Shown in pieces: positions 38,599 through 58,056 of a stretch of DNA of 64,000 bases. Under the pieces are notes generated by a model, which made no database searches, was not told the origin of the DNA, and saw only the letters and a list, made by a program, of their open reading frames with translations. How positions within the stretch are numbered: position 1 is the first letter of the stretch; each line of letters begins with the position of its first letter. Position numbers and translations under genes: made by a program. The DNA is from Lutibacter sp. (lineage in GTDB: Bacteria; Bacteroidota; Bacteroidia; Flavobacteriales; Flavobacteriaceae): positions 62,001 to 126,000 of the forward strand of contig NZ_JAEINV010000004.1 of NCBI RefSeq assembly GCF_016342705.1, given 5' to 3'.

Positions 38599-38609
38599 AA
38601 TTCTTAAGA

Positions 38610-41744: not shown

Positions 41745-41854
41745 AATAATTAATACGTTAAATTTTGGTTAATAATCGAATAGTGTAAATCTATATTTTA
41801 AAAAATCGGCTCCATATTTATTGCCTACGCTTTAATTACACCTTGCAAATGATT

Positions 41855-41869
41855 TGGTTACGTCAACCA
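41855..41869. promoter_or_regulatory. Weak operator-like inverted repeat between susC and the propeller regulator
   Basis: tggtt (41855-41859) and aacca (41865-41869) flank acgtc. Directly beside it gcaaatgatttgg forms another short dyad. It is a candidate site for the adjacent LuxR-type regulator; arms are only 5 bp. Confidence 0.3.
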
Positions 41870-41924
41870 TACATCATTTTTGTTTATTACTTAGTTAATA
41901 GCGATTTAAATTGATTTTTTATGT

Positions 41925-41932
41925 TACATTTG
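41925..41932 (+). promoter_or_regulatory. -7 box (TAnnTTTG) for the propeller regulator gene
   Basis: tacatttg matches the consensus exactly, 31 bp upstream of the ATG at 41964. Confidence 0.5.
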
Positions 41933-41963
41933 AAATCATTATATATAATAAAGTATCTTATTT

Positions 41964-44855
41964 ATGATTCGTAAATATTCTTTTGCTTTCTTAGTTTCAC
42001 TATCTTTTATTGTTCAGGCTCAAATTGATACTGCTTTTTTAAAAAAAGTTAAATCATCCGTTACCGAAACCATTAGTTTTGATAAAAATGATTTCAAATC
42101 TGATTCACAATTTTGGACGATGATTGAAGACCATGATGGTCTATTAATTTTTGGGAATAATGCTGGAATATTAATTTATGATGGTGAATATTGGAAAAAC
42201 GTCTTTTTACCTAACAAATCTTCTGTTAGAAGTTTATTGATGGATGAAAAGGGAGTTATTTGGGTAGGTGGCTATAATGAAATTGGAAATTTAATAAAGG
42301 ATGAATTTGGAAATTACTATTATAAGTCCTTAATGGATTCACTTCATTTAGACACTGTTAATTTTGAAAACACTTGGAAAATACATTCTTTCAATGGTAA
42401 AATAGTTTACAGAACCTTTAAAGAATTAATTGTTATTACTGGTAAAGCTGTTACTCACATAAAAGCAAATCAAGCTTTTACGTATTCTGAAATAGTGAAC
42501 GGTCAATTAATTGTTCAAGATGAAAATAATGGAATTTATTTATTAAATAAAAATGGAGACAAACTAACCAATGCCTTTTATACTAAAGACATTAAAAGCA
42601 ACACTTTAATAGCCTCTTTACCTTTAAACAAGAAAGAAATTTTTTTTATTACCCGAGAAGGTTATGTGTATTTAGCTGATTTAAATTCCAAAACAATCCT
42701 TAAAAAAAATGAACTATTTGAAAAAGGGCATATTGATCCCATAAATTGTGGAATACAAAAAAATGATTCTACCTTACTTTTAGGAACGTTAAGTTCAAAA
42801 ATAATTGAGTTAAAAAACAATGGAGAATTTACCACAACTAACATCACTTTTTCTAAAGTTAAAAACACTGCAATTCTTAATTTTTATAAACTAAAATCAA
42901 ATAATATTTGGGTACTTCAAAACAATGGCATTTCATGTTTAGATTTCAATTCACAATACGCTAACATTTTTGATTACGCTTCAGTTTATGATATTTTAAT
43001 TGATAATGAAACCATTTATTTAGCAACAAATGAGGGCGTTTATTACTTAAATAAATTTGACAATTTTAATTATAAAGTTAATAAAATTGAAGATTTACCG
43101 GGCCAAGTTTGGTCATTAAAAAAAGTAGGGGAAGAAATTATAATAGGTCATAATGATGGGCTTTTTGTTTTAAAAGATAATATTATAAAACGAATAGATA
43201 ACAGAACCGGTTTTTGGAAAATAACACCAATTAAGGGAGAAAAAAATACTTTTCTAGCATCAAGCTACAATGGCTTATTTTTATTAAAAAAAGAACAATC
43301 AAATTGGGTGTTAAAACATCAAATTGATGGGTTTGACGAATCTACTAGAGATATTCTCGCCGCCGATGAACCAAATACTTATTGGGTGTGTCATGGCTAC
43401 AAAGGCGTTTATAGATTAGTCATCAATTCAGAAAATACACGCGTAGAATCCGTTGAGCACTTTACTACAAATAATGGTTTTAAATCGCCTTTCAATATCA
43501 ACGTAGTAAATTATAAAGGACAAATTGTTTTCACTACAAATAATGGTATTTATACATTTAATAGGAACACCAAAACTTTTATACCTGAACCAACGTTAAA
43601 TTCAATTTTAGCCCCTTCAAAAAACACAAGGAAGTTACTATTTACAATGGAAAAAACTTGGTTTGTACAAGATGATGAAGCTGGATATTTTTTGAATAAT
43701 AACGAAAAAAAAATCATAAAAACACCTTTTTTAAATTTAAAAGGGACATTTAATGAAGGAATGGAATGTATTTTACCTTATAATAACTTTATATTTTTTG
43801 GTACAAAAGACGGCATGTTTTTGTATGATATTAATAATTACAATAGCCAAAATACCTTTACATCTTTTAGCAGCATAACTTATACAAAGGGGATAAATAA
43901 AAATTCAGCTTCTTTACAATCTGATAATAACATAAAAATACCTAATAATTCTGATATTTTAAGATTTGAATTTAGTGCTCCCAAAATTGCACCTTATACT
44001 AATGTCCAGTATCGCTATTTTCTAGAAGGGTCAGATGAAAACTGGTCTTCATGGTCTTCAAACCCCTTTAAAGAATATACAAAATTAAGTCATGGTCAAT
44101 ATGTATTTAAAGTAAAAAGCAGAAGTAACACTGGAGTTGAGGGAAAAGAGGTGTCTTATGCTTTCACAATACTACCTACCTGGTATCAAACCAAACTTGC
44201 TTATTTTTTATACATATCACTGTTTTGTATTATTACTTTTTTACTTTATCAACTCATTTTAAAAAAAATTGAAGGTGAAAAAAGAAAAACTAAATTAGAA
44301 ACTTTAAAAGACCAAAAGTTAATTAGGCTAGAATTAGAACAACTTAAATTATCAATTGAAAAAAAGAAAATTAAAGATGATAATAACCATTTAGAGATGG
44401 ATTTAATTGATAAAAGTAAAGAATTGGCAAATTATACTTTATTGTTAAGCAAAAGAAAAGAAGCTTTTATAGAATTAAGTAATGATCTAAAGCAACTGAA
44501 AGATATTGTTAAGAATAATGAGTCAAAAAATAAGATTGTACAAATATTTAAAAAGTTAAATCAGAACAGTATAGGAGACAAATATTTAGAAATATTTGAT
44601 GTTAATTTTGAAAGGGTTCACAACAATTTTTTTATGGATTTAAAACAAATCGATGCAACATTCTCTCAACGCGAATTAAGATTGTGTGCTCTAATTAAAA
44701 TGAATTTAACAAATAAAGAGATTTCACATATTTTAAATATTTCCAATAGAGGTGTTGAAACTGCTCGATATAGAATTCGTAAAAAACTGAACTTGCCATC
44801 ATCAGAAAGTCTCACCTTATTTTTAGAGAATTTAACTATTGAAACAAATGACTAA
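41964..44855 (+). CDS. Propeller / Y_Y_Y membrane regulator with C-terminal LuxR-like HTH
   Basis: The 963-residue protein has a signal peptide (to about 19, VQAQ), a long periplasmic region of two-component-regulator propeller repeats (about 45-640; for example GLLIFGNNAGILIYDGEYW and VIWVGGYNEIGN), a Y_Y_Y domain (about 660-735, with VQYRYFLEGSDENWSSWS), one membrane helix (about 746-765), a coiled coil (about 767-850) and a LuxR-like helix-turn-helix (900-963, LTNKEISHILNISNRGVETARY). Unlike hybrid two-component sensors it has no kinase or receiver domain, so ligand binding outside must reach the HTH directly through the membrane. Position points to control of the divergent susC-susD-PKD operon. 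Confidence 0.88.
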   Translation: MIRKYSFAFLVSLSFIVQAQIDTAFLKKVKSSVTETISFDKNDFKSDSQFWTMIEDHDGLLIFGNNAGILIYDGEYWKNVFLPNKSSVRSLLMDEKGVIWVGGYNEIGNLIKDEFGNYYYKSLMDSLHLDTVNFENTWKIHSFNGKIVYRTFKELIVITGKAVTHIKANQAFTYSEIVNGQLIVQDENNGIYLLNKNGDKLTNAFYTKDIKSNTLIASLPLNKKEIFFITREGYVYLADLNSKTILKKNELFEKGHIDPINCGIQKNDSTLLLGTLSSKIIELKNNGEFTTTNITFSKVKNTAILNFYKLKSNNIWVLQNNGISCLDFNSQYANIFDYASVYDILIDNETIYLATNEGVYYLNKFDNFNYKVNKIEDLPGQVWSLKKVGEEIIIGHNDGLFVLKDNIIKRIDNRTGFWKITPIKGEKNTFLASSYNGLFLLKKEQSNWVLKHQIDGFDESTRDILAADEPNTYWVCHGYKGVYRLVINSENTRVESVEHFTTNNGFKSPFNINVVNYKGQIVFTTNNGIYTFNRNTKTFIPEPTLNSILAPSKNTRKLLFTMEKTWFVQDDEAGYFLNNNEKKIIKTPFLNLKGTFNEGMECILPYNNFIFFGTKDGMFLYDINNYNSQNTFTSFSSITYTKGINKNSASLQSDNNIKIPNNSDILRFEFSAPKIAPYTNVQYRYFLEGSDENWSSWSSNPFKEYTKLSHGQYVFKVKSRSNTGVEGKEVSYAFTILPTWYQTKLAYFLYISLFCIITFLLYQLILKKIEGEKRKTKLETLKDQKLIRLELEQLKLSIEKKKIKDDNNHLEMDLIDKSKELANYTLLLSKRKEAFIELSNDLKQLKDIVKNNESKNKIVQIFKKLNQNSIGDKYLEIFDVNFERVHNNFFMDLKQIDATFSQRELRLCALIKMNLTNKEISHILNISNRGVETARYRIRKKLNLPSSESLTLFLENLTIETND

Positions 44856-44936
44856 TCAAAAAGACTAAAAGGTCACATACGTTTTTAGCTGAAACTATGT
44901 TTATACAGTTCTAGAAATTTCTCTTTTATAAATTAA

Positions 44937-44970
44937 CAAAGCCTGATAATAAAATAATTATCAGGCTTTG
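44937..44970. terminator. Hairpin terminator between the propeller regulator and the tRNA 3'-end copy
   Basis: A perfect 14-bp stem: caaagcctgataat (44937-44950) against attatcaggctttg (44957-44970), 6-nt loop. It may end the regulator gene on plus, or be the old trailer terminator of the tRNA gene on minus, since it lies just beyond the tRNA-end copy. Confidence 0.8.
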
Positions 44971-44976
44971 TTTTAA

Positions 44977-44993
44977 GTACCCCGAGTGGGAAT
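44977..44993 (-). repeat. Displaced copy of the tRNA-Leu 3' end (candidate attachment-site remnant)
   Basis: gtaccccgagtgggaat is identical over 17 nt to 56909-56925, which is the T-arm end, acceptor stem and discriminator of tRNA-Leu(CAA), in the same orientation. The match stops at once on both sides. A hairpin terminator follows on the minus strand, as it does for the intact tRNA. Confidence 0.75.
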
Positions 44994-45123
44994 TTTTAAC
45001 GCTATTATCATACTGTTAATGTGTATTTTAGAGATTTTCAGTACCATATTAGTACCATTAATATTTTAATATCAGAAAAATATAACCTTTCCAAAACAAG
45101 TTCTGAATGAAAATAAATTAAAA

Positions 45124-45180
45124 ACAATAACCTTGATTCAAACCATAAACCAAGGCTATTATCAACTTAAAATAAATGAA
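45124..45180 (-). repeat. Intergenic hairpin repeat, copy 1 (after GH97)
   Basis: ataaccttg and caaggctat form a hairpin (one G-T pair), and the minus strand then runs into T-rich sequence. A related copy lies at 47307-47366 between GH13 and GH97: both share ccaaggctatta, then ..ca.ct.aaaata.atgaa. It probably terminates or stabilises the operon transcript. Confidence 0.6.
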
Positions 45181-45215
45181 ATTGTTAATTTTTAAAAAAA
45201 TAAAATTTTATTTAA

Positions 45216-47291
45216 TTATTCAACCAAACTAACTTTAATCGCTGTTCCACCACCTGGAGCAAGAATCAGTGTTATTATTGACTCACTATCTATATTTTGC
45301 TTTGAAATATCAATAGGATAAGGATTGCTTTTATAGTTTGCTTCTTTTCCATCTGTATAAATTTCTGCAGTATATTTTTTAGTTGAATCCAAAAAAGAAA
45401 AAGATACTTTTATTTCTCGTTTTTCACTATTTGTAATTGCTCCCAAATACCAATTTTTTGCTTCCCAATCTTTACGTGCAATCACAACATATTCACCTAT
45501 TTTCGCATCCAAAACTTTTGTTTCTGACCAAATAGATGGCACTTCTTTTACAAATTTAAAAGCTGGTTTTCCAACATAATTTTCTGGTAAATCTGATGCC
45601 ATTTGCAAAGGGCTAAAAAGCACCGCATATAATGCCAATTGTTTTGCAAGTGTGGTTTGCACTTTAGCTCCTTGAACAGATTTATAATCAAATCCAAAGT
45701 TCCCAGGAGTAAAATCCATTGGGCCTGAAAGCATACGTGTAAAAGGTAATATGGTAGTGTGTTCTGGTGGATTTCCTCCATCGTTAGACCAAGCATTGTA
45801 TTCTTGCCCTCTAGCACCTTCTTGTGTCATTAAATTCGGGTAGGTACGTTGTAAACCTGTCCCTTTTACAGGTTCATGATTATCAATCATAATATGATAT
45901 TTTGCAGCGGTTTCAATTACTTTTCGGTAATGACGCACACCGAATTGACTATCATGCCATTCTTTTTTGTCTAAATATTTATTTACATAACCTGTTTTTA
46001 CTGCATTTACGCCCATTTTATTATATAATTCAAAAGCTGCTTCCAATTGATTTTCATAATGACTTGCAGCGCCAGCAGTTTCATGATGGCCAATTAATCT
46101 TACGCCTTTTTTAGCTGCATAACTACTAATTTCCTCAATATCAAAATCTGGATATGGTTGTGTAAAACTGAATGAAGTACCATCAGCTGTCCAATCTCCG
46201 TCCCAACCAACATTCCAACCTTCAACTAAAACACCATTAAAGCCATTTTCAGCAGCAAAATCTATGTATTCTTTTGTGTTTTTGGTAGTTGCACCGTGCT
46301 TTTCTCCAGATCCCCAAGTGTATTTTTCTAAATGCATTCCCCACCAAATACCAATATATTTTGAAGGTTCTATCCACGATAAATCTTCAATTTTAGATGG
46401 TTCATTTAAATTTAACATTAAAGTTGAGGTTACTAACTCTCCTGGATTTTCCGCAATAATAATTGTTCTCCAAGGCGTTTCAAAAGGTGTTTTTGTGTAC
46501 ACTTTTACACCATCAGCCCAAGGAACTAATTCACTTTGAAATTTATTTTTTTCTGTATATCTCAAAGTCATAGAAGCAAAATCAGTTAAATTAGCTTCGT
46601 GAATTGCTAAATACATTCCATCTTTTGTTTCAAAAGTTGCAGGCGTATTTATAGTCTCTGTTTTGCTTATTGGAGATTTTCTGTATAAACTTTCATAATA
46701 ACTATTATCAGAATGTACTGGAATCCACCAAACACTGTGTTCTTCAGGAAACGTAAATTCCGTTAATTCATTGGAAATTTTTACTTCGTTTAAATTTGGT
46801 TGTTCTGGAAAATAATATCTAAATCCTAATCCATCATTAAATACCTTAAAAATGATATCAACCAATCTTTTATCGCCTGACGTTTCTTGTAAATGAACCG
46901 TCAGTTTTGTGTGTTGATCTTTAATAGTTTTAAATTCTCCCCAAGGCTGTTCCCAAGTTGTATTTACTGAGTCAATTTCAGAATTTATGATTTTAAATCC
47001 ATTTGTCATTTTCTGATTTTCAACAAATTCAAAGCCCATTTTTGAAGTTGTAATAATTGATTTTTTACTTGAAGTTAGTTCATATTGTGGTTCTCCAGAT
47101 GCACTTAAACTAAAAGTAAGTTGATTTTTATTATTAGGAGATGAAATAGTTAAAATTTCATCAACATTTGTACATGAGTTTAAAATAATTACAAAAAATG
47201 TAAGTATGGATAAGGCTTGTATTTTAAAGTTCATTATATGATTTAATTTGGCGTTGCTAAATGCAGTTTTAATGTTGAATTTATTTTTCAT
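45216..47291 (-). CDS. susB: GH97 alpha-glucosidase (SusB-like, inverting type)
   Basis: The 691-residue protein carries a lipobox at LNSC (Cys 40); an inner Met at residue 20 (47234) would give a more ordinary lipoprotein signal and may be the true start. An N-terminal beta-sandwich (about 45-300) precedes the GH97 barrel. The inverting-type residues are visible: E404 in GHHETAG, E473 in IDNHEPVKGTG and E491/E497 in QEGARGQEYN. The site where retaining members keep a catalytic Asp is G434 in VKTGYV, as in SusB. It should release glucose from malto-oligosaccharides, and is the last gene of the starch operon. Confidence 0.9.
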   Translation of the reverse strand: MKNKFNIKTAFSNAKLNHIMNFKIQALSILTFFVIILNSCTNVDEILTISSPNNKNQLTFSLSASGEPQYELTSSKKSIITTSKMGFEFVENQKMTNGFKIINSEIDSVNTTWEQPWGEFKTIKDQHTKLTVHLQETSGDKRLVDIIFKVFNDGLGFRYYFPEQPNLNEVKISNELTEFTFPEEHSVWWIPVHSDNSYYESLYRKSPISKTETINTPATFETKDGMYLAIHEANLTDFASMTLRYTEKNKFQSELVPWADGVKVYTKTPFETPWRTIIIAENPGELVTSTLMLNLNEPSKIEDLSWIEPSKYIGIWWGMHLEKYTWGSGEKHGATTKNTKEYIDFAAENGFNGVLVEGWNVGWDGDWTADGTSFSFTQPYPDFDIEEISSYAAKKGVRLIGHHETAGAASHYENQLEAAFELYNKMGVNAVKTGYVNKYLDKKEWHDSQFGVRHYRKVIETAAKYHIMIDNHEPVKGTGLQRTYPNLMTQEGARGQEYNAWSNDGGNPPEHTTILPFTRMLSGPMDFTPGNFGFDYKSVQGAKVQTTLAKQLALYAVLFSPLQMASDLPENYVGKPAFKFVKEVPSIWSETKVLDAKIGEYVVIARKDWEAKNWYLGAITNSEKREIKVSFSFLDSTKKYTAEIYTDGKEANYKSNPYPIDISKQNIDSESIITLILAPGGGTAIKVSLVE

Positions 47292-47306
47292 AATTGAAAA
47301 AACTTA

Positions 47307-47366
47307 AATAATAACCTCAATTTCAAATTAATAAAACCAAGGCTATTACCACTCAAAATAGATGAA
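47307..47366 (-). repeat. Intergenic hairpin repeat, copy 2 (between GH13 and GH97)
   Basis: aataacct and aggctatt pair around an AT-rich loop. The sequence is a diverged copy of 45124-45180. In the minus direction it lies after the GH13 stop and just before the GH97 start, where it could attenuate GH97 expression. Confidence 0.6.
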
Positions 47367-47370
47367 TCTT

Positions 47371-48771
47371 CTAATTTTTTAATACTAAATATTGATAAGG
47401 CGCTAACGTAAGTTCAGTTTCAAGTTGAACAGTTGCATTTGTAAATGCGTTATTCCAAATGATAGATGTTAGTGCAGATGAACTTGTATATTTAATTGTT
47501 TTGTTTCTTAAATTTGAAATTACCAACACTTTTTCTTGATTAATTTCCATTGTAAAAGCACACACATCATTGCTGCTAAACCCAGTAAGTCTTCCTCTTC
47601 TAATTGCGTTGCTTTGGTTTCTGAAATTGATAATTTGTTTATATTCTTTTAACAATTCATAATCTGAAACATTCCAATTAATAGGTTCTTTGTTAAAGAA
47701 ATTAATACGTGTATTATAACCAACTTCCTGTCCGTTGTAGATCATTGGAACAGATTTCATATAAGCCGCTACAACAAATGCAGCCATAGATCCTTCTTTT
47801 CCTCCAAATAACTGATAAGGAGTTCCATCAAAACTATTTATATCATGATTTGAAGTATATCTAATAACTCGTTTTGAATTATCCGATACATTTATATATT
47901 CATCATTATTTTTATCTTGAATAGAAGTTGCCGAACGGTTATTTCCTAAAACATCTTTTAACGTCCCAAAAAATCCAAATCCAAAAATATAATCAAAGCC
48001 CATAGAAAAATTAGTGTTATTTGAACCTTCCGCAAACAATAGCATAGGTTGATTTTTTATTTTTCTAATTGCTTCATTTGCTTTTTTCCAAAAATCTTGA
48101 GGTACAAAATCTGCATAATCACAACGAAAACCATCAATGTTTGCATTATAAACCCAATAAGACATAGCATCAATCATTGCTGCACGTAACTCGGGATTAT
48201 TATAGTTTAACTGTGCAACATCTTGATAATTAGTGTTAGGCGGAATGATAATATTTCCACTTGCATCTTGTTGATACCAATCTTTATGTGCTGTAATCCA
48301 AGGGTTATCCCAAGCAGTATGGTTTGCAACCCAATCTAAAATTACTGTTAAATCTCTGTTATGAGCTTCTTCAACAAAATCTCTTAAATGCTCTAATGTA
48401 CCAAATTCTGTACTCACTTTTTTATAATCTGCTACAGCGTAGGGCGAACCCAAACCACCGGCAGATTTTATCTGTCCGTTTGGAAAAACAGGCATTAAAT
48501 AAATTACATTAGCACCTAGGTTTTTTATAGAATCTAATCTTTTTTGTGCTCCTTTTAAAGTTCCTTCAGAACTAAACGCTCTTAAATTTATTTGATAAAT
48601 TACAGCATCTTGAGGGTCTGGAACATTAGAAAATGGCACCCCATATTGAGTATAATCAGTAACAATATCTGGTTCTTCTTGTAACTCTGGTATTTGATCA
48701 TCAGTATTCTGACAAGAAAGTAAAAAGGTTGTAAAAAAGAATGTTAAAAATATACTTAAAAATTTCTTCAT
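47371..48771 (-). CDS. Alpha-amylase family lipoprotein, GH13
   Basis: The 466-residue protein has a lipobox Cys at 20 (FLLSC), so it is probably anchored in the outer membrane. The four GH13 regions are intact: DWVANH (146-151), GFRCDYAD (214-221, nucleophile D218), LFAEGSN (245-251, acid/base E248) and TSNHD (306-310). It is shorter than SusG (about 690) and has no carbohydrate-binding insert. It should cut starch or maltodextrin for uptake by the SusC/SusD pair encoded upstream. It lies 67 bp after susE/F with a hairpin between. Confidence 0.92.
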   Translation of the reverse strand: MKKFLSIFLTFFFTTFLLSCQNTDDQIPELQEEPDIVTDYTQYGVPFSNVPDPQDAVIYQINLRAFSSEGTLKGAQKRLDSIKNLGANVIYLMPVFPNGQIKSAGGLGSPYAVADYKKVSTEFGTLEHLRDFVEEAHNRDLTVILDWVANHTAWDNPWITAHKDWYQQDASGNIIIPPNTNYQDVAQLNYNNPELRAAMIDAMSYWVYNANIDGFRCDYADFVPQDFWKKANEAIRKIKNQPMLLFAEGSNNTNFSMGFDYIFGFGFFGTLKDVLGNNRSATSIQDKNNDEYINVSDNSKRVIRYTSNHDINSFDGTPYQLFGGKEGSMAAFVVAAYMKSVPMIYNGQEVGYNTRINFFNKEPINWNVSDYELLKEYKQIINFRNQSNAIRRGRLTGFSSNDVCAFTMEINQEKVLVISNLRNKTIKYTSSSALTSIIWNNAFTNATVQLETELTLAPYQYLVLKN

Positions 48772-48787
48772 TTTATATATGTTTATT

Positions 48788-48824
48788 ATTGAGATTGCTT
48801 ATAAAAATTTTAAGCAATCTCAAT
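48788..48824. terminator. Perfect hairpin between susE/F and the GH13 gene
   Basis: A 14-bp stem attgagattgctta (48788-48801) against taagcaatctcaat (48811-48824), 9-nt loop. The T run follows on the plus strand, so on the minus (operon) strand it more likely acts as a processing or stability hairpin than as a full terminator. Confidence 0.6.
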
Positions 48825-48838
48825 TTTTAATTTAGTTA

Positions 48839-50188
48839 TTATAGTTTTTGAACTATGTAAGTTGCGGTTTCTTTGTTGTTTGGAACTAATTTAAACGTTA
48901 TTTCATAAGTTCCAGATTCAGCAATATTATGGGCTCCTGGGTCATCTAAATAAACAATGCCATCATCATTATTTCGTGCTCCGTAATTAACGGTCCATTC
49001 ATTATTCAATCTAAATTTTACAGCTCCTGGTTTTAAATCGGCAGTAACTTTCCATTCATTTGTGTCATTATCAAAAGTCATAGGCGTACTAGTATCCCAT
49101 CCACCTTCTGTTGCATCTCCAATAATTCCATAACTAATTTTAGTTACTGAATAATTTGCTGTTGCAGGATCTTCATTAATTTTAAAAGTAACTTCAAAAG
49201 TTGCCGCTTCTGAAATAGTATGAGCTCCTTGATCACCTAAGTAAGCAATTCCATCTGTACTATTTTGAGAACCATAATTAATATCCCAAGAATCATTTAA
49301 TCTAAATTTTAAAGCCCCAGATTGAAGATTTAAATTAGAAATCCAAAGCTTATTTTGGTAATCATAAATCATATTAGTATCACTATCCCAACCACCTGGA
49401 GTTGCTGTACCAATAAGACCAAAAGAACTTAATTGATATGACCACGTAAGATTGTTTAAATTGGCAGTTATGAGGTACGTTCCTGGTTCCGGAACGGAAA
49501 GATCCATATCATTCTTTTCTTCAATTTTACCATCGCCATTTGCTCCATAAAATGTTGCCCAATTTCTTTCAGGATTAATTTTAAATCCTAAACCTTTATT
49601 GCTAGGAAATGTAATATAACCTTGATAAATTCCATTATCTATGGTTGTTAATGTAGCGGCATTATCTACATTCCAATCTTGATAAGCACCAGGCACAAAT
49701 ATTTCCCCAAAAATGATGTTTTTTTCATAAGGAGTAATTTTTAACACTGTTGCTTTAGAATAGGCTGCGCGGTCCATATAAGACTCCACACGAATCACTA
49801 ACGTTCCTTCAACATCTGGTTGAAGTCCTAAGTTAAGTGCAATTTCATTCAACTCAACTCCTGAAAATGATTTGCTTAAAACATCAACCCCTGCGGCTTT
49901 ACTAATAGCATTTTTCCAAGCATTATCTCCAACAGTATCTGCAGGAATATCAAATTGAACTTTATAACTTACAGGCGCTTCAATAGGATACACAACAGAA
50001 GACCAAGAAGCAGTAGCTAAAGATTCATTTTCATTTTCTTCAGTTACTATCACACTTGATGGGAAAATTTCTGCAGTTGCATCAAAATTAACAACCTCTA
50101 ATACCGTAAGTATAGCATCCTCCTCACACGCTGTTCCTAAAATTAAAACAGCAAAAAGTAGTACGATTTTATTTATATATTTTTTCAT
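48839..50188 (-). CDS. SusE/SusF-like starch-binding lipoprotein with tandem C-terminal domains
   Basis: The 449-residue lipoprotein has Cys at 21 (GTAC). An N-terminal SusE-type domain (about 25-155, VSYKVQFDI) is followed by a middle domain (about 158-255) and two near-identical CBM-like SusF domains (about 258-350 and 354-445). Both contain PGGWDSDT/EGGWDTST, then KFRLN.xW.xNYG and DGI.YL.D.GAH. It binds starch at the surface and aids capture. Its place, 11 bp after susD in a susC-susD-susE order, matches the Bacteroides Sus layout, though a single gene covers what are two genes (susE, susF) there. Confidence 0.88.
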   Translation of the reverse strand: MKKYINKIVLLFAVLILGTACEEDAILTVLEVVNFDATAEIFPSSVIVTEENENESLATASWSSVVYPIEAPVSYKVQFDIPADTVGDNAWKNAISKAAGVDVLSKSFSGVELNEIALNLGLQPDVEGTLVIRVESYMDRAAYSKATVLKITPYEKNIIFGEIFVPGAYQDWNVDNAATLTTIDNGIYQGYITFPSNKGLGFKINPERNWATFYGANGDGKIEEKNDMDLSVPEPGTYLITANLNNLTWSYQLSSFGLIGTATPGGWDSDTNMIYDYQNKLWISNLNLQSGALKFRLNDSWDINYGSQNSTDGIAYLGDQGAHTISEAATFEVTFKINEDPATANYSVTKISYGIIGDATEGGWDTSTPMTFDNDTNEWKVTADLKPGAVKFRLNNEWTVNYGARNNDDGIVYLDDPGAHNIAESGTYEITFKLVPNNKETATYIVQKL

Positions 50189-50199
50189 ATTGTTTAATT

Positions 50200-51693
50200 T
50201 TAATAACCAGGGTTTTGTACCAATCCAGGATTTGCATCTAAAGCTGATGTTGGAATTGGAAATAATTTTCTATAGTTTTCTGAATTACCTCTAAAATTAT
50301 TTGGTAATAAGAATTTGTCAAATCGTATCATATCCTGTCTTCTGTGTCCTTCCCAATTTAACTCAAAACCTCTTTCATTGTAAATATCGTTTAAGGTTGG
50401 GTTTCCAGCTAAACGATCCAATCCAGCACGTTGCCTAACTTCATCTAAAAATGGTTTTGCATCTCCCGCTTTATTTAGTCTTACATTACATTCTGCCTTC
50501 ATTAATAATACATCAGCATATCTATAAATAGGAAAGTCGTTAGAAGCTCCACCCCCATCCATTGGAGTTACAGGATAAAACTTCATATTACGAACACCTG
50601 CTTGAGGTGCTGCGCCTGGATTGTCCAGTGAAGACACTTCCAAGGTATAAGTTGTTCCACCAGGTTGTTCACCAATTAAAAATTGTTTTTTACGAATGTC
50701 ATTATCATCATACTTTAAGAAAAAATCTGAAGGAACAATTGTTCCATTCCAACCGCTAAAACCAAATAATTCTTGTGCGTGAGGACCATTTAAACTACGT
50801 ACTGTAAAAATATTACGAGATACTACATTTGCAGATGCAAACATGGCTAGAATGGTTTCATCTTCTGGTAATACATCTCCAAATAATTCATAGTATTTAT
50901 AACCTAATGGATTGTTGGCATCAACTGCTCCTGAGTGCAGGCTAAAACCACCTTCACTAACTTTATTACAAGCTTCTAAAGCTTCTTGCCATTTTGCTGT
51001 ACCAGTATAAACTTCAGCATTTAAATAAACTTTTGCTAATAAAGTATACCCAGCCCATTTATTGAATCTTCCATAGTAATTTCCTCCTTTTGATGCTGAA
51101 AGATTTTCAACATTTTCGGTTAATTCACTCAATACAAATTGATAAATTTCTGCTCTGTTTGCTTGTGGAATTTTATCTACAGTAATATTATTTTCTGTAT
51201 AAAAAGGAACATTTCCATAATCATCCATTAGTAAGTAGTAGAAAAAGGCTCTTAAAACTTTAGCTTCTGCAATTTTTGAAACTTCAGCATTTGAACTTAC
51301 CAATTGATCTACCGCTAAATTGGCATTGTAAATTGATTTGTACAACCAATTCCATGTATTTCCTATGATATAATCTGTTGGTAACCATTCGTGTTTATAT
51401 AAACGTGCAAAATCTAATTGCCAATCCCCTGTATTTCTATGTGGAATTACTTGTTCATCTGCACACATAGCGTTCATATCGTACCATCCATTATCTGCTC
51501 CAGCATAACCTACACCTCCCCAGTTTCCACCAATTTGAGCATATACACTAGCTAGTGCTACATCTGCACCTTCTGCTGAGCCATAAAATTCATCTGCTGA
51601 ATATTTATCATATACGTGCTCATCAATATTGGTACATCCTAAAAGTAATAAGAAACTTAAACTTCCTATTATTAATATATTTTTGATTTTCAT
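50200..51693 (-). CDS. susD: SusD-type starch-binding lipoprotein
   Basis: The 497-residue protein has Cys at 20 (LLLLGC) and the SusD/RagB fold: AKVLRAFFYYLLMDDYGNVPF, YRYADVLLMKAECNVRL and the C-terminal NWEGHRRQDMIRFDKF block. Aromatic residues are plentiful in the W-rich N-terminal third (GNWGGVGYAGADNGWYD). The genes around it (SusC, SusE/F, GH13, GH97, SusR) make starch or maltodextrin the likely ligand. Confidence 0.92.
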   Translation of the reverse strand: MKIKNILIIGSLSFLLLLGCTNIDEHVYDKYSADEFYGSAEGADVALASVYAQIGGNWGGVGYAGADNGWYDMNAMCADEQVIPHRNTGDWQLDFARLYKHEWLPTDYIIGNTWNWLYKSIYNANLAVDQLVSSNAEVSKIAEAKVLRAFFYYLLMDDYGNVPFYTENNITVDKIPQANRAEIYQFVLSELTENVENLSASKGGNYYGRFNKWAGYTLLAKVYLNAEVYTGTAKWQEALEACNKVSEGGFSLHSGAVDANNPLGYKYYELFGDVLPEDETILAMFASANVVSRNIFTVRSLNGPHAQELFGFSGWNGTIVPSDFFLKYDDNDIRKKQFLIGEQPGGTTYTLEVSSLDNPGAAPQAGVRNMKFYPVTPMDGGGASNDFPIYRYADVLLMKAECNVRLNKAGDAKPFLDEVRQRAGLDRLAGNPTLNDIYNERGFELNWEGHRRQDMIRFDKFLLPNNFRGNSENYRKLFPIPTSALDANPGLVQNPGY

Positions 51694-51702
51694 TTTCTTT
51701 TA

Positions 51703-54700
51703 CTATTTAAATTTAACATTTAACCCTAAAGAGAAACTTCTGGTTCGTGGATAAATTCCATTATCTCCACCAAAACCATTTCCGCCACTTAAATTAAGTT
51801 CTGGATCTATTCCAGAATAATCTGTAATTAATAATAGATTGTTTCCAGTAAATGAAAGACGAACAGATTCAATATATTTTACATTTTCCAAGTTAAAATT
51901 ATAACCGACAGTTACGTTTTCTAATCGGATAAAAGAGCCATCTTCAAGCCATAAATCTGATCCGTATTTTGAGTTAAATAAGCCTAAAGGCACTGCACTT
52001 TCTAAAACATTTGATTTCCCTATATTTTCAAGATAACTTAATGTAGATCGTATACTATTGTATATTTTGTTTCCTCCTGAACCTCTCCATAACATAGAAA
52101 CATCTAAATTTTTATGCTGAAAAGTTGGATTAAAAGCAAAGGTGTATGTAGGTAGCGCTGAGCCATTTATCAATCTATCAGGACTTTCATTTCCTTGGTC
52201 TATAATTCCATTATCATCAACGTCCAAAACTGTTTCAGAATTAACACCGTCTTTTCCTGTATGATGTAAAATATTAAAAGTACCTATTGGTTGCCCTTCA
52301 ATTAAATAAGAATTTGGACCCCAAGAAACATAATCGGTATTTAAAGGAACTCCATTAATACTTCCACTTAAATTTAACACTTCATTTCTAATAAAGGATA
52401 CGTTTCCAGCAAGCGTTAAAGTTGTATTATCCGATTTTATTAGATCATATCCTAATCCTATTTCAATTCCTTCATTTAAAATACTTCCTACATTTGCTTT
52501 AATTGTTCCATAAGGAAATGGTGGTTGAGGGACTGTATAATCAAACAATAAATCATCCGTTGTAGAAGTGTAAACATCTATAGATCCTTTTAATTTATTG
52601 TCTAAAAGGGCAAAATCAACTCCAACATTTGTTTGTTTTTTAGTTTCCCAACGTAAATCTTCATTGGCATTTTGAGTTACATTAAAGTTGGTAATTTGTG
52701 ATCCTCCAAAATAAGTTACACCAGCTCCGCCCACTAAAGAAATTGAATTTTGCGGGTACAACCCTTGTTGGTTTCCTGTTTCACCATAACCACCACGTAA
52801 TTTCAAATGATTAAATATTTTTTGGTTTTTCATGAAAGGCTCTTGGTCAATTTGCCAAGCAACTGAGGCCGATGGAAAACTACCCCATTTATTGTTTGCT
52901 CCAAATACTGAAGAACCATCACGTCTTAAACTAGCAGTTACTAAATATTTATTTAGAAACGAATAATTTACACGACCTAGAAATGACACTAAAGTTCTAT
53001 CGTTTTTATAAGAAGATAAATCTCCAGGAACCACTTTAGACAAGTCTCCAAGTTGTAATGCATTGTATGTTGCAATATCATTTAAAAAACCTCTAGCTTG
53101 TGCATAATTCCCTTGATAGGTTTGATTTTGCCATTCGTATAACACTAATGCATTAATGCTGTGGTCTCCAAAAATTTCTTTATAGGTAAGGCTAACATTT
53201 GTTAGTTTTTCATTTTGCTTATTTGTGTTAATATTTGCATATCCATTTTGATCAATTGCATATGAACTTGTTGAAACTGCTGGCAAATAAAAACCATTGG
53301 TATTATTTGTTTTTCTCCAGCTTCCAAACCAACCTACTGTCAAACCTTTTGTTAATTCTAAATCTGCTTTTAAACTTCCAAACAAATTATCATATTGTCC
53401 TTCATTCGTGACTGTTTGTGAAACAGCATAAGGATTTAGATATTGAAAAACATTTGGATCTGTATAATAACTTCCATCTGAATTAAAAACTGGATCTGTT
53501 GGACGCATTACATACGCATTAGAAATTAAATTTGATGTAAATGCTGCCCTTCCAATACTTTGAACACTACTTTTTGTTTCTGTAATTCCACTATTAAGGT
53601 TGAATGTTAATTTTAATTTATCATCCAAAGCAGATTGCGTAGCTTGAATTCTACCAATATATTTTTTATTATTAGAATTTATTACAACACCGTCTTGCAA
53701 AATAGCACTTATAGAAGCTCTATAGCTAAACTTATCTGTTCCACCTCCAAAAGCTAATGTATGATTTTGTGTTAAACCGCTTCTAGTTAAAATATTATAC
53801 CAATCGGTATTTGAACCGTGATTTGCAGAAGCTGGAACACCAACTAATTGCGCTTGTTCCCACCACTGATTAGCATTTAACATATCCAATTTTTTTGGAA
53901 TAAAATCAATTGCTGAACTTGCAATGTATTCAACAGTTGATCTGCCTACTTTATTTTTTTTAGTACTCACAATAATTACACCTGGAGCACCTCTAGATCC
54001 ATAAACAGCTGTTGCCGATGCATCTTTTAAAATATCAATCGAAATAATTTCACTTGGTGGAATTTGGTTTAATAAATCCATATTTCCTTGAATTCCATCC
54101 ACAACAACTAAAGGATCGTTTCCTCCAATTAACGATGAAATTCCACGAATTCTAACGCTTGGTGATGATCCAGGCTCGCTACCTGTTTGTGTAATATTAA
54201 CACCCGCTGCTTTTCCTGAAATTAACTGAAGAGGACTTGTTACAGCACCTTCATTCATGTTTTTTTCTGAAATAGAAACTACCGATCCAGTTACGTCTTT
54301 TCTGTTTGCAGATCCATAACCAATAAGTACAATTTCATCTAAAGTTGTAGTGTCTGGTAATAATTGAATTTTAAAGGAAGCTACACTTGCTTTTACTAAT
54401 TGTGTTTTATAACCTATAAAACTTATTTCAATAATAGCATTTTGGTTGGCAACTTTTATACTAAAATTTCCATTAAAATCGGTTACTACACCATTTAAAG
54501 TTCCCTTTTCAATTATTGATGCTCCAGGCAAAGGCAACCCATTTTCATCAGTTACAATTCCATTGATAGTTTTTTCTTGATCTTTATTATTTATTGAAAT
54601 AGTTAATTCATTGGAGCTACTATTTGCATATAAATTATTTTGAACATTTAATATTAGGACTAAAATAATTAGCAATAAATGTTTCATTTTAAAATGTGTT

Positions 54701-54747
54701 TTGAATAGTGAATATCTTAATCCATTATTCTTAAATTTTATATTCAT
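51703..54747 (-). CDS. susC: SusC-type TonB-dependent transporter for malto-oligosaccharides
   Basis: The 1014-residue protein has a long N-region before the signal core (MKHLLLIILVLILNVQNNLY begins at residue 21, position 54687), a form seen in other Bacteroidota SusC proteins. A carboxypeptidase-D-like domain (about 57-140), plug (PLVVVDGIQGN, SIDILKDASATAVYGSRGAPGVI) and barrel follow. The chain ends SLGLNVKFK, with one Lys after the usual C-terminal Phe. It opens the starch operon, divergent from the SusR-like gene. Confidence 0.93.
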   Translation of the reverse strand: MNIKFKNNGLRYSLFKTHFKMKHLLLIILVLILNVQNNLYANSSSNELTISINNKDQEKTINGIVTDENGLPLPGASIIEKGTLNGVVTDFNGNFSIKVANQNAIIEISFIGYKTQLVKASVASFKIQLLPDTTTLDEIVLIGYGSANRKDVTGSVVSISEKNMNEGAVTSPLQLISGKAAGVNITQTGSEPGSSPSVRIRGISSLIGGNDPLVVVDGIQGNMDLLNQIPPSEIISIDILKDASATAVYGSRGAPGVIIVSTKKNKVGRSTVEYIASSAIDFIPKKLDMLNANQWWEQAQLVGVPASANHGSNTDWYNILTRSGLTQNHTLAFGGGTDKFSYRASISAILQDGVVINSNNKKYIGRIQATQSALDDKLKLTFNLNSGITETKSSVQSIGRAAFTSNLISNAYVMRPTDPVFNSDGSYYTDPNVFQYLNPYAVSQTVTNEGQYDNLFGSLKADLELTKGLTVGWFGSWRKTNNTNGFYLPAVSTSSYAIDQNGYANINTNKQNEKLTNVSLTYKEIFGDHSINALVLYEWQNQTYQGNYAQARGFLNDIATYNALQLGDLSKVVPGDLSSYKNDRTLVSFLGRVNYSFLNKYLVTASLRRDGSSVFGANNKWGSFPSASVAWQIDQEPFMKNQKIFNHLKLRGGYGETGNQQGLYPQNSISLVGGAGVTYFGGSQITNFNVTQNANEDLRWETKKQTNVGVDFALLDNKLKGSIDVYTSTTDDLLFDYTVPQPPFPYGTIKANVGSILNEGIEIGLGYDLIKSDNTTLTLAGNVSFIRNEVLNLSGSINGVPLNTDYVSWGPNSYLIEGQPIGTFNILHHTGKDGVNSETVLDVDDNGIIDQGNESPDRLINGSALPTYTFAFNPTFQHKNLDVSMLWRGSGGNKIYNSIRSTLSYLENIGKSNVLESAVPLGLFNSKYGSDLWLEDGSFIRLENVTVGYNFNLENVKYIESVRLSFTGNNLLLITDYSGIDPELNLSGGNGFGGDNGIYPRTRSFSLGLNVKFK

Positions 54748-54862
54748 GTTTTTTCAAATTAAGGATTGTTGTTAATTAGTTTTAGAATTCACTTTAATAA
54801 TAATTTGTTTGGTTTTGCATACATATTTGATTTGAATTAATTAATTTGGTTAATTATTCTCT

Positions 54863-54870
54863 CAAAATTA
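54863..54870 (-). promoter_or_regulatory. -7 box (TAnnTTTG) for starch susC
   Basis: On the minus strand TAATTTTG matches the consensus, 116 bp upstream of the susC start. A long leader of about 110 nt is implied. Confidence 0.5.
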
Positions 54871-54903
54871 GACACAAAGAGGAGCTGAGAAAAAAAGTGA
54901 ATT

Positions 54904-55020
54904 AAAAATCTAGATAAAAAAGATATTATATTAAAATTAAAATGCTTTATATTAGCTTTTTACTAGAATTTAAGCAAAATAAAAATCTAGACTATTTTAA
55001 AAAAAATCCATATGGATTTT
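54904..55020. promoter_or_regulatory. Candidate SusR operator cluster
   Basis: aaaaatctaga occurs at 54904-54914 and again at 54981-54991 (77 nt apart, near seven helical turns). The 18-bp perfect palindrome aaaatccatatggatttt lies at 55003-55020. All are upstream of the susC -7 box and between the divergent starts. Confidence 0.4.
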
Positions 55021-55217
55021 ATGTGTAAATTGAGTAATTTTCTATTTTTTATAATAATTTAAGTTTAAAAAACTTATATTATTATAAAAATACACTATGC
55101 TATATTTTAACATAATTCCTTATAATAAAAGTGTAATTTTGATTTTTATACATTCAAAATTGAAACATTTATAAATAATAGCTACCTTTAAAATCTTGTT
55201 ATAATTATAAAATATAA

Positions 55218-56816
55218 ATGCGATATATCTTTCTGTTAATTTTTGTGAATTTAAGTATTAATGTTGCTGCTTCCGATTCTATAACATTGCTTCAAAGACT
55301 TGAAAAAACGATTACAAATAAAAATTTTTATCTGAAAAAAAAGTATGAAAAAATTGCCATTCTAAAATTAAATTTAGAAAAAAATATTTATGGCGGCAAC
55401 AATCATGAGTTATATGAATCTTATATGCTCTTATTTAATGAATACAAATCTTTTCAATACGACACCGCTTATTATTATATAGATTTAGCGAAGGAAAAAG
55501 CAATTTTTTTAAAAGATTCGGTAAAACTTTCTAGAGCAAAAATTAATGAGGGTTTTGTACTTCTTTCATCTGGACTATTTAAAGAAGCTATTGATACACT
55601 TTCGAGCATTCCAGTTAATTCATTACCAAAAAATATTAAATTTCAATATTATGCCGTAACAGCAAGAGCTTTTTATGATTTAGCAGATTACACCAGAGAT
55701 TTTAGATATACCATAAATTATGTTCATAAAGGGAATGAAAATTTGGATTTAGCACTTGAAAACGTTGAGCCAAATACTAATGATTATTATAATACTGAAG
55801 GGTTGAAAAAATTGAGAATTCAAGATTGGAATGCAGCTGAGCAAGCCTATACTTATTGGTTAAACAATCTTGATTTACAACCCGATTATTACGGAATTGC
55901 GACTTCAAGTCTTGCTTATATTTATTCAGTACAAGGTTTTAATGAAAAAAATATTGAATATTTAACGCTTTCTGCAATCTCTGACTTAGAAAATGCAACA
56001 AAAGAAACAGTTGCTTTAAGAAATTTGGCAAGTGAATTGTACAAATTAGGCGATTTAGATAAAGCTAATAAGTACATTTCCTTGGCGATGGAAGATGCTA
56101 CTTTTTATAATGCACGTCATCGAAAAATTGAAATTTCTACCATTTTACCTATTATTGAAAAAGCGCAACTTCATAAAATTGAAGGACAAAAAAACATGTT
56201 GAAAAAAATTGTTTTCTTACTGATTATATTAGCATTAGTTGTATTTATTTTTTCAATAATCATTGTAAAGCAACTAAAAAGTAGAAACATTTCTAGAAAA
56301 AATTTGGTTGAAACAAACGCTAAGTTACAAGAGCTAAACACAAATCTTAAAGAAGCCGATATTATAAAACAAGAGTATATTACTTATTTTTTAAAAGTTA
56401 CTTCAGACTTTATTCATAAAATTGATACTCTTCAAAAAAGCACACTTCAAAAAATTATTGCTAAAAGACCAGATGAAGTGATTCCTATTTTAAAAAGATA
56501 TAGTGTAAAAAAGGCAAGGGAGCATCTTTTTCATCAATTTGATGAAGTTTTTTTGAAGCTTTTTCCTTCATTTAAAGAAGAATATTACGCTCTTTTTCCG
56601 GAAAACGAAAGAGCAGATATTTTTAAAACTGAACTTTTAAATACTGAACTTAGAATTTTTGCTCTTTATAGGTTAGGTATTCAAGACAGTAGTCAAGTTG
56701 CTGATTTTTTAGAACTTTCTATCTCAACAATTTATACTTATAAAACAAAAATTAAAAGTAAGTCTAATTGTAAAGATACTTTTGAAGAAAAAATAATGGC
56801 TATTAAAACACTTTAA
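55218..56816 (+). CDS. susR: SusR-like membrane transcription regulator (TPR region, TM, HTH)
   Basis: The 532-residue protein has a signal peptide (to about 18), a helical, TPR-like periplasmic region (about 20-320), one membrane helix (about 327-350), a coiled-coil linker and a DUF6377-like C-terminal part with a helix-turn-helix (about 470-515, [28 protein letters not shown] split over two helices). Bacteroides SusR has the same plan and a close length (about 540). SusR senses maltose or malto-oligosaccharides in the periplasm and activates the sus genes; divergent placement next to susC supports the same role. Confidence 0.85.
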
Positions 56817-56869
56817 AAATATTCTTTGTTACTAAAATTACAATTCACACAACCAATATAAAGTGGTAG

Positions 56870-56905
56870 AAAAAAACCTGATAGAACTTCATCTACCAGG
56901 TTTAA
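56870..56905 (-). terminator. Terminator of the tRNA-Leu gene
   Basis: aaacctg (56874-56880) pairs with caggttt (56897-56903) and the stem continues by four pairs after one mismatch. Seven T residues follow on the minus strand. Confidence 0.75.
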
Positions 56906-56908
56906 CAT

Positions 56909-56925
56909 GTACCCCGAGTGGGAAT
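56909..56925 (-). repeat. tRNA-Leu 3'-end copy within the intact gene (attachment-site partner)
   Basis: gtaccccgagtgggaat here is part of the functional tRNA-Leu and matches 44977-44993 exactly over 17 nt, including one base beyond the mature 3' end. Confidence 0.75.
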
Positions 56926-56991
56926 CGAACCCACACTCCCGAAAGAACTGGATTTTGAATCCAGCGCGTCTACCAATTCCGCCATCGGGGC
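56910..56991 (-). tRNA. tRNA-Leu (anticodon CAA)
   Basis: The 82-nt minus-strand cloverleaf begins GCCCCGATGGCGGAATTGG and closes with TCGGGGT plus discriminator A. The acceptor stem pairs 7 of 7 (one G-T). The anticodon stem CTGGA/TCCAG holds loop TTCAAAA, so the anticodon is CAA, reading UUG. The variable arm is short, the T-arm has GTTCGATTC, and the CCA end is not encoded. A -7 box lies 17 nt upstream and a terminator downstream. Confidence 0.95.
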
Positions 56992-57079: not shown

Positions 57080-57087
57080 TAAATTTG
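57080..57087 (+). promoter_or_regulatory. -7 box (TAnnTTTG) of the prs-rplY operon
   Basis: taaatttg matches the consensus 28 bp before the ATG at 57115. A TTG start at 57085 would fall inside this box, which argues for the ATG. Confidence 0.6.
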
Positions 57088-57114
57088 CACTACAAACAAC
57101 AACACAACAACAAA

Positions 57115-58056
57115 ATGGAAAACTGTCAATTAGAACCTAAAATTTTTGCCTGTAGGCAAAGTAAAGAATTAGCGTTGGAAATAGCTAAACACTATGGCTT
57201 AACGTTAGGAAATGTAGTTATCTCTAATTTTAGTGATGGCGAATTTCAACCAGCCCTAGTTGACTCGGTAAGAGGAAGACGTATTTTTATTGTTGGATCA
57301 ACTTTCCCAAATTCAGACAATTTAATGGAAATGCTGTTAATATTAGACGCAGCTAAAAGAGCTTCAGCTAGACATATTACCGCAGTAATTCCTTATTTTG
57401 GCTGGGCCCGCCAAGATAGAAAAGATCAGCCACGTGTTGCAATCGGCGCAAAATTAGTTGCCAATTTATTACAAGCGGCAGGCGCTACTAGAATTATGAC
57501 TATGGATTTACATGCAGATCAAATTCAAGGCTTTTTTGAAAAACCAGTGGATCATTTATACGCATCTACCATCTTTTTACCCTATGTAAGAAGTTTAAAT
57601 TTAGAAAATATCACAATTGCTTCTCCTGATATGGGTGGTTCTAAAAGAGCATATGCCTATTCAAAATATTTAGAAAGTGAAGTAGTAATTTGCTATAAAC
57701 AACGCCTAAAAGCCAATGTAATTGACACCATGGAATTAATTGGTGATGTTGCAGGTAGAAACGTAATATTAGTAGATGATATGATTGACACAGGAGGAAC
57801 ACTTACCAAAGCAGCCGATTTAATGATGGAAAAAGGAGCTTTAAGCGTAAGAGCAGTTTGTACGCACCCTATACTTTCTGGGCAAGCCTATGACAGAATT
57901 GAAAAATCTCAATTATTAGAATTAATAGTTTCTGATACAATTCCTTTAAAAAGAGCGTGTTCTAAAATAAAAGTTGTATCTTGCGCCCCTTTATTCGCTG
58001 ATGTTATGCATAAAGTACAAGACAACAGATCCATCAGTGGACAATTTTTAATGTAA
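57115..58056 (+). CDS. prs: Ribose-phosphate pyrophosphokinase
   Basis: From ATG 57115 (MENCQLEPKIF) the protein has 313 residues, the standard length for class I PRPP synthases. The FSDGEFQP flag region, the ATP-binding AKRASARHITAVIPYFGWAR stretch, DLHADQIQGFF and the PRPP-loop VDDMIDTGGT are intact. It makes phosphoribosyl pyrophosphate from ribose-5-phosphate and ATP for nucleotide, His and Trp synthesis. It is followed by rplY after 21 bp, a common pairing. Confidence 0.96.
   Translation: MENCQLEPKIFACRQSKELALEIAKHYGLTLGNVVISNFSDGEFQPALVDSVRGRRIFIVGSTFPNSDNLMEMLLILDAAKRASARHITAVIPYFGWARQDRKDQPRVAIGAKLVANLLQAAGATRIMTMDLHADQIQGFFEKPVDHLYASTIFLPYVRSLNLENITIASPDMGGSKRAYAYSKYLESEVVICYKQRLKANVIDTMELIGDVAGRNVILVDDMIDTGGTLTKAADLMMEKGALSVRAVCTHPILSGQAYDRIEKSQLLELIVSDTIPLKRACSKIKVVSCAPLFADVMHKVQDNRSISGQFLM

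Follow-up and report, generated by a model that had tools for sequence, protein, structure and literature searches.

The starch utilization (Sus) locus described here occupies positions 44977-56908 of the window, a stretch of 64,000 nucleotides from the genome of a marine bacterium of the genus Lutibacter. Six genes lie between a tRNA-Leu(CAA) gene and a direct repeat of the 3' end of that gene, and the whole is probably a small genomic island inserted at the tRNA. A SusC/SusD pair, a SusE/F-type protein, a GH13 and a GH97 glycoside hydrolase and a SusR-type regulator identify the cargo as a Sus-type starch polysaccharide utilization locus (PUL). It differs from the known Sus-type locus in having one SusE/F-type gene, a GH97 of apparently mosaic origin and a setting between attachment (att) sites. 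Genomes are denoted below by G numbers (G000 holds the window) and loci by L numbers. The features of the island, from left to right, are the following.

44938-44969, minus strand: hairpin of the CTGATAAT..ATTATCAG type, taken to be the native terminator of tRNA-Leu (from the sequence)
44977-44993, minus strand: att core on the distal side, apparently the displaced original tRNA 3' end (exact 17-mer; architecture as in the distal ends of G025, G002 and G014)
45040-45056, plus strand: double repeat AGTACCATATTAGTACC, probable integrase arm site, a putative role (single match in the window at up to three mismatches)
45216-47291, minus strand: GH97 glycoside hydrolase, apparently a mosaic member of the unit (Pfam PF10566, PF14508, PF14509)
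47371-48771, minus strand: GH13 alpha-amylase (Pfam PF00128, PF23915 SusG_C)
48839-50188, minus strand: SusE/SusF-type outer membrane protein (Pfam PF16411, PF14292)
50200-51693, minus strand: SusD (Pfam PF07980, PF14322)
51703-54747, minus strand: SusC TonB-dependent transporter (NCBIfam TIGR04056, 722.4 bits, cut-off 368.25)
55218-56816, plus strand: SusR-family regulator (NCBIfam NF058541, 515.6 bits, cut-off 480)
56873-56903, minus strand: hairpin at the right end of the island, now following the tRNA (from the sequence; like the right end of an integrase-less module in G002, z 6.8)
56909-56925, minus strand: att core on the tRNA side, the tRNA 3' end (exact 17-mer)
56909-56991, minus strand: tRNA-Leu(CAA), the intact target gene, whose 3' end presumably came with the island (ARAGORN)

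The 17-mer GTACCCCGAGTGGGAAT occurs on the plus strand at 44977-44993 and 56909-56925, with no third site in the window at up to three mismatches. Because ARAGORN places the sole tRNA of the window, tRNA-Leu(CAA), at 56909-56991 on the minus strand, the second copy is the 3' end of that gene. The whole genome contains exactly these two copies, and dinucleotide shuffles of the window give a mean of 0.01 matches at up to three mismatches. An earlier note on this DNA had pointed out the same-orientation repeat, judged it unlikely to arise by chance and stated that it encloses only the starch genes and their regulator. All of this holds, there being no further open reading frame of at least 100 amino acids between the copies. 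The order along the tRNA, namely tRNA, island, 3'-end copy and flank, is that expected for integration at a tRNA 3' end, and tRNA-associated islands likewise have a direct repeat of the tRNA 3' end, in the same orientation, at both ends. The conserved core is shorter than the 17-bp repeat of the earlier note: distal copies in comparable elements of congeners differ in the last three of the 17 bases, leaving 14 bp (GTACCYCGAGTGGG).

Fragments of tRNA genes occur near integration hot spots, and the copy at 44977 might be an old relic of this kind, or a chance match, unconnected with the Sus genes. The probability of this is negligible in view of the chance expectation and of the hairpin and arm repeat beside the copy, which match those of integrase elements. 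Nor is the 17-mer common to all relatives, as an unrelated tRNA relic might be: it occurs in 3 of the 38 genomes of the genus that were compared, G000 included. Each species is represented by a single genome in the collection, and all comparisons are therefore between species.

On the minus strand each copy of the 17-mer is followed by a hairpin, in agreement with the earlier note, which had called both of them terminators; the T-run is clear on the tRNA side and imperfect on the distal side. The CTGATAAT..ATTATCAG-type hairpin also adjoins the tRNA in G008, G016, G024 and G033, and G008, a relative of G025, has immediately after its tRNA the hairpin that in G025 lies at the far end of an integrase element. 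For these reasons the hairpin at 44938 can be read as the terminator native to the tRNA, carried 12 kb away together with the native 3' end, and the copy at 44977 appears to be the original tRNA-Leu(CAA) 3' end of the host, now out of place. The hairpin region at 56873-56903, which would have arrived with the island, has a weak likeness to the native one (z 2.8, below the best shuffle).

The site was compared across the genus through the neighbourhoods of prs, which adjoins tRNA-Leu in these genomes. The two genes that flank the island in the window are:

41964-44855, plus strand: left-flank regulator of another PUL (Pfam Y_Y_Y, GerE; 81% identity in G007, 79% in G024)
57085-58056, plus strand: prs, right flank (NCBIfam NF002320)

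The gene prs is present in 35 of the 38 genomes (G000 included), and its neighbourhood was compared in 30 of the 37 others, over 2.9 to 20 kb each, 17 of them extended. tRNA-Leu(CAA) was detected in 28 of these neighbourhoods, the remaining two being contig ends, which together with the window gives 29 sites. Within the DNA compared, a seed search found integrase genes at four sites, in G025, G002, G006 and G015. The element in G025, 16.6 kb long, lies at this tRNA, with the integrase (Phage_integrase and Phage_int_SAM_5) on the tRNA side and a far end consisting of a hairpin, GTACCTCGAGTGGG and AGTACCAGATTAGTACC; the AGTACCATATTAGTACC motif lies near both ends of this element. The integrase of G002 is 81% identical to that of G025 and stands in the same place, 136 bp from the tRNA (144 bp in G025), with a like far end. 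The same kind of end is found in G014 on another contig, beside a gene like that bordering the tRNA in G030 and others. The distal ends in the window, G025, G002 and G014 thus have a common layout: a hairpin, the core, about 50 bp and a double arm repeat. Alignment of the 75 bp that follow the core in the window gave z 4.3 with G025, 6.1 with the outer G002 end, 7.2 with G014 and 4.6 with the inner G002 end, each score lying above all 1000 mononucleotide shuffles. The exact pattern of core, 40-70 bp and arm repeat occurs in 3 of the 38 genomes (G000, G014 and G025) with no hit in the controls; the ends in G002 deviate from it. Among phages, 69 records matched the G025 integrase, all at less than 60% identity.

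The elements in G006 (Phage_integrase) and G015 form a second class, with a different integrase, cargo that by eye is restriction-like, and distal tRNA copies 15.7 and 16.4 kb away, respectively. At these loci (L076 and L099) the T-arm of the tRNA reads CCGGAATCGAACCGG and the displaced copy still has TGGGAATCGAACCCA, the form widespread in the genus. In G037 (L088) and G009 (L101), tRNA-Leu(CAA) borders directly on a locus that has SusC and what by eye are GH32, MFS and LacI-type genes. Just past the far end of this locus in G037, 13 kb away, lie a hairpin and a core copy with two mismatches, of a kind expected by chance. A long GGAAA..TTTCC hairpin, like that of the G025 element, stands by the tRNA in G026 (L078), G020 (L085), G001 (L086) and G010 (L098). 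Some of these four sites have what appear to be decayed arm repeats, and no integrase was found there; they are possibly traces of lost elements.

Sites that lack the island are found among close relatives. G007 is the sister of G000 with support 1.0 on a tree of prs, rplY and pth, and flanking genes unite G007 and G024 with G000, again at support 1.0; neither of the two has the island SusD. In G007 the window is collinear over 33295-44861, with a gap at 35.3-36.1 kb, and is followed by 61 bp and then the tRNA, the left-flank regulator standing 68 bp from it. In G024 the same regulator is followed by 3.1 kb of other DNA and then the tRNA, and no tRNA copy was seen in the locus. A conserved gene matching window 9281-11320 stands 265 bp from the tRNA in G016. 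Of the 30 loci, 14 have this gene on the same side of the tRNA, with one of the matches partial at 70%, and at the other 16 it was not seen in the sequence compared; its distance from the tRNA ranges from the 265 bp of G016 to 45.6 kb in the window. Empty sites of the kind that the earlier note had suggested looking for are thus present in G007 and G016, although that of G007 looks scarred by another element.

The right flank in the window is conserved across the genus, and PUL-bearing islands between core genes, without mobile-DNA functions, are among those described in PMC8845570. Homologous recombination between conserved genes on either side, the route of import proposed there for Bacteroides PUL islands, would nevertheless leave the displaced tRNA end, the hairpin and the arm repeat unexplained. 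Nor does the right flank look imported, since prs, rplY and pth of G000 group with those of G007, and this route is very improbable.

Between the conserved 9281-11320 gene and the island, window 11400-44900 contains three more SusC genes. It is also largely present in G007 and partly in G024, and, among the loci compared, only single genes of it are matched at that place in G001 and G003; PULs seem to have entered the left flank earlier than the Sus island did. Of the 25 sites at which 10 kb or more were compared, 10 have a SusC gene no farther than 10 kb from the tRNA on the side of the island, a count made from at most 16 scored candidates per genome with no proper baseline, and no enrichment is claimed.

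In the genus the island SusD (E<=1e-60) occurs in G000 itself and in none of the other 37 genomes, so that the relatives do not all keep the Sus locus at this place, which the earlier note had named as an outcome contrary to its proposal. SusR (E<=1e-3) is present in 7 of the 38 genomes and, besides G000, exceeds 50% identity in G005 alone, where it reaches 58% and the locus is a different PUL type. The unit was also looked for more widely. Screening of 66 named loci with a SusR relative, over at most 10 kb on each side, yielded four (L107, L114, L140 and L164) in which the six genes are all present and agree in order and orientation. In a wider sample of 397 genomes of the family, SusD (E<=1e-150) was found in five, G000 included, and the other four (G334, G170, G180 and G153) have the whole unit. 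Counting G334 and L164, which agree in length and in identities, as one contig, there are seven other copies. In L107, L114 and L140 the sequence covers the SusR side of the unit and reaches as far as the GH97 end.

Over the best segments, the window unit is 68-77% identical to these copies in SusC, 73-75% in SusD, 53-67% in SusR, 46-51% in SusE/F, 53-59% in GH13 and 41-44% in GH97. The neighbours within 6 kb of the units are largely unrelated (BLASTP, E<=1e-20). One clear shared neighbour, by eye a MutS-like protein, is 84% identical between G170 and L114; lesser matches are short stretches at 39-49% between G170 and G334 and SusC-like proteins at 29% between G000 and G153. Because seven other genomes have the same six genes in the same order amid mostly unrelated neighbours, the Sus locus would seem to be transferred as a whole, as the earlier note had proposed.

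A link to a tRNA or to a presumed integrative and conjugative element (ICE) was found in four of the seven other copies. In G170 (L220) and L114, which belong to two genera, the unit lies 1.8-1.9 kb from tRNA-Leu(UAA); the opposite orientations suggest that these are probably two insertions. Between SusR and the tRNA, L114 has a double repeat, TTGTACCTATGTTGTACC; no integrase was detected in this locus. In L107 an integrase (Arm-DNA-bind_5, SAM_5 and Phage_integrase) lies between SusR and tRNA-Arg. In G180 the unit stands between an integrase and a conjugation module. This module contains BfmA/BtgA (89.4 bits, cut-off 24), a MobB relaxase (414, cut-off 200) and TraG (310, cut-off 261.55). Its coupling protein exceeds the cut-off for Pfam T4SS-DNA_transf and scores 167.7 against a cut-off of 900 with the MobC model; TraN exceeds the cut-off for DUF4138 and falls below that for TIGR03780; TraM exceeds the Pfam cut-off and falls below that for TIGR03779; TraK is below its cut-off. 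The search for the same segment elsewhere, which the earlier note had recommended, therefore did find the unit beside mobility genes. No second exact 16-mer of the tRNA 3' end was found around the unit in G170 or, in the sequence reaching to the GH97 end, in L107 or L114; G170 also had no copy with up to two mismatches.

The collinear units in other genera show that the unit is old in the family, and an ancestral Sus locus at tRNA-Leu(CAA), lost in the other lineages, might be considered. Such a history would require at least two losses in the clade of three, however, while SusD is confined to one of the 38 genomes, the neighbours of the unit differ between genera and the far end bears marks of integration. 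It is accordingly a most doubtful alternative.

One gene departs from the pattern of the unit. The window GH97 is mostly 64-74% identical (53% in one short segment) to the GH97 of a PUL type common in Flavobacterium, a far closer match than to the GH97 of the collinear starch units. The unit is for this reason called mosaic: GH97 seems to have a history unlike that of the other genes, one gene having been swapped, and movement of the whole PUL as a unit, as the earlier note had it, would need this qualification. The base composition of the island is unremarkable. The mean guanine-plus-cytosine (GC) content of its genes is 0.315, compared with 0.314 and 0.319 in the core flanks; at third codon positions (GC3) it is 0.170, compared with 0.209 and 0.210; and the codon distance between island and flanks is 0.062-0.064, compared with 0.041 between the flanks, a comparison that is weak with six genes. 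The island thus does not have the deviant composition that is frequent in, but not required of, tRNA-associated islands. The six island proteins have no match in PHROGs, and window 45216-54747 has no megablast match among plasmids.

An integrase gene inside the island is one mark of tRNA-associated islands; this one contains its six annotated genes only and no integrase hit, and is therefore degenerate or non-autonomous. A comparable structure exists in G002, where the far end is 22.9 kb from the tRNA and an inner copy of the core, with two mismatches, lies in between. The resulting tandem array consists of 11.0 kb with the integrase by the tRNA, followed by an outer 11.8 kb without an integrase hit. 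The outer module encodes an acetyltransferase, an S15 peptidase, a LytTR regulator, a histidine kinase and others, and a Pfam search of nine of its proteins revealed no mobility protein. Core copies with two mismatches are expected by chance 0-4 times (mostly 2-4) in the sequence searched, as judged from 10 Markov replicates, so that it is the preceding hairpin and the following arm repeat that support the inner copy. The right end of the module is similar to that of the Sus island, with CCTGATAG..CAGGTTTAACAT preceding the core (z 6.8), and is also unlike the right ends of the integrase elements of G025 and G002. Accordingly, the integrase may have left with a tRNA-proximal element, or the island may be a non-autonomous module.

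In the second case the island would never have had an integrase, its ends being recognised in trans by another element at the same tRNA. The integration step would be the same as in the explanation that is preferred below. The tandem array of G002, the resemblance of the island's left end to both distal ends of that array, the similar right ends and the near-equal lengths of 11.9 and 11.8 kb all favour such a cassette. There are just two cases, however, the inner core copy of G002 has a number of mismatches expected by chance, and the unit is also able to travel on autonomous elements, as indicated by the integrase beside it in L107 and the conjugation genes in G180; a cassette of this kind is unlikely. 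It is slightly less probable still that the island and the G002 module represent a class of approximately 12-kb non-autonomous cassettes with shared ends and metabolic cargo, moved in trans at tRNA-Leu(CAA). If so, PULs in the genus would spread as satellite-like cassettes, not as parts of ICEs.

The repeat, the native-type hairpin, the ends resembling those of integrase elements and the island-free sites can be read directly from the DNA, as can, in other genera, the same six genes accompanied by conjugation genes and an integrase or by a tRNA-linked integrase. With a probability of about 0.88, window 44977-56908 is an 11.9-kb genomic island integrated site-specifically at the 3' end of tRNA-Leu(CAA), resembling a cis-mobilizable element (CIME). 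Site-specific recombination of the tyrosine-integrase type would have brought the island, with one complete starch locus and its regulator as cargo, into the tRNA 3' end. The core of the element would have replaced the last bases of the tRNA and supplied a new terminator. The original 3' end and terminator of the host would have been pushed to the far end and kept at 44938-44993, followed by the arm repeats at 45040-45056. An integrase of the G025/G002 class may have carried out the integration and may later have left by excision or by deletion of the tRNA-proximal module. Assuming that the att sites still flanking the island are functional, a matching integrase might move it again. The integration at the tRNA 3' end proposed in the earlier note is thus upheld by the ends and the island-free sites. 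Of its statement that the integrase was lost, the present absence is confirmed, and the loss itself is only presumed, as no remnant was found.

Several observations weigh against this explanation. The search for tyrosine-recombinase remnants in the island or window produced none at E<=1e-4, and short hits at E 0.2 to 9 are at chance level; G000 has no relative of the G025 integrase (E<=1e-20). The right end of the island is unlike those of the integrase elements in G025 and G002, and a search of the window at up to three mismatches found no further arm repeat on the tRNA side. The hairpin type called native adjoins the tRNA in just 4 of the 28 other sites, the rest having different hairpins. 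Across the family, the attR pattern occurs in 1 of the 397 genomes, G000 itself. Composition was rejected as a sign of foreign origin, the GC content being equal to that of the flanks and codon use slightly more distant, so that the comparison with the flanks suggested in the earlier note revealed no foreign signature. The nearest SusR found is 67% identical, which points to no recent donor. The site in G007 is probably not pristine, because the T-arm of its tRNA (CCGGGATCGAACCGG) and the following hairpin differ from those of the other congeners seen; it may bear the scar of another, lost element. Strictly speaking, the island could conceivably have been lost from G007 and G024 and not gained by G000. 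Three of the seven other copies of the unit (G334, G153 and L140) have no tRNA or integrase link in the sequence examined, and the G180 element, whose ends are not delimited, is an ICE by our reading of its genes.

The attR pattern was also considered as a detector for the whole family and was rejected on the strength of that single genome; the motif seems to be of genus level.

One point of comparison is provided by Riemerella anatipestifer, which is placed within the Flavobacteriales. Its 10K genomic island is situated at tRNA-Arg, with a 53-bp repeat and an active tyrosine integrase (PMC6764341). The window island likewise adjoins a tRNA with direct repeats; the Riemerella island has a tyrosine integrase and no PUL is mentioned in the passages of PMC6764341 that describe it, whereas the window island has a PUL and no integrase. 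In the tRNA-targeted islands catalogued by Islander (PMC4383910), the ends are marked by a regenerated tRNA gene and a displaced 3' fragment, both of which are found here. The window island differs from the islands as outlined there in lacking an integrase, in its cargo of one PUL and in the native-type hairpin beside the displaced fragment.

The island is of a known kind, an att-flanked, integrase-less, CIME-like island carrying a PUL. CIMEs retain their att sites and lack integration and transfer genes (PMC5704250), as is the case here, where attL and attR are kept, and a tandem arrangement with an integrase element is seen in the congener G002. The examples given in that source come from other bacteria, such as Streptococcus, Streptomyces and Legionella. 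As to the derivation of CIMEs from ICEs or integrative and mobilizable elements (IMEs), the cargo unit is accompanied by an integrase and conjugation genes in G180, and the window island has no ICE remnant. ICEs and other mobile elements carrying PULs are described from gut Bacteroidetes (PMC6907783, PMC8845570); they resemble the present case in having SusC/SusD loci as cargo, which in G180 are associated with an integrase and conjugation genes, and differ from it in that the host here belongs to the Flavobacteriaceae and the window copy is without mobility genes. In Bacteroides ovatus and B. xylanisolvens, PMC8845570 reports variable regions, often PUL-bearing and mostly without mobile-DNA functions, and weighs several routes by which PUL regions move. 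Findings in Flavobacteriia are stated to corroborate the hypothesis of PUL exchange by horizontal transfer (PMC6298971). A literature search found no paper linking a PUL with a tRNA gene, a direct repeat and horizontal transfer.

PUL repertoires differ between close relatives, and one starch PUL is found here in what appear to be successive stages: with an integrase and conjugation genes in G180, with an integrase at a tRNA in L107, near a tRNA with a double repeat and no integrase found in L114, and flanked by att sites without an integrase in the window. These stages outline a path, open to testing, by which ICE cargo could turn into a chromosomal PUL that appears ordinary; the combination of displaced tRNA end, hairpin and arm repeat offers a signature by which further cases can be sought. 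The stages suggest a way in which nutrient genes can pass from one species to another and afterwards shed their transfer machinery.

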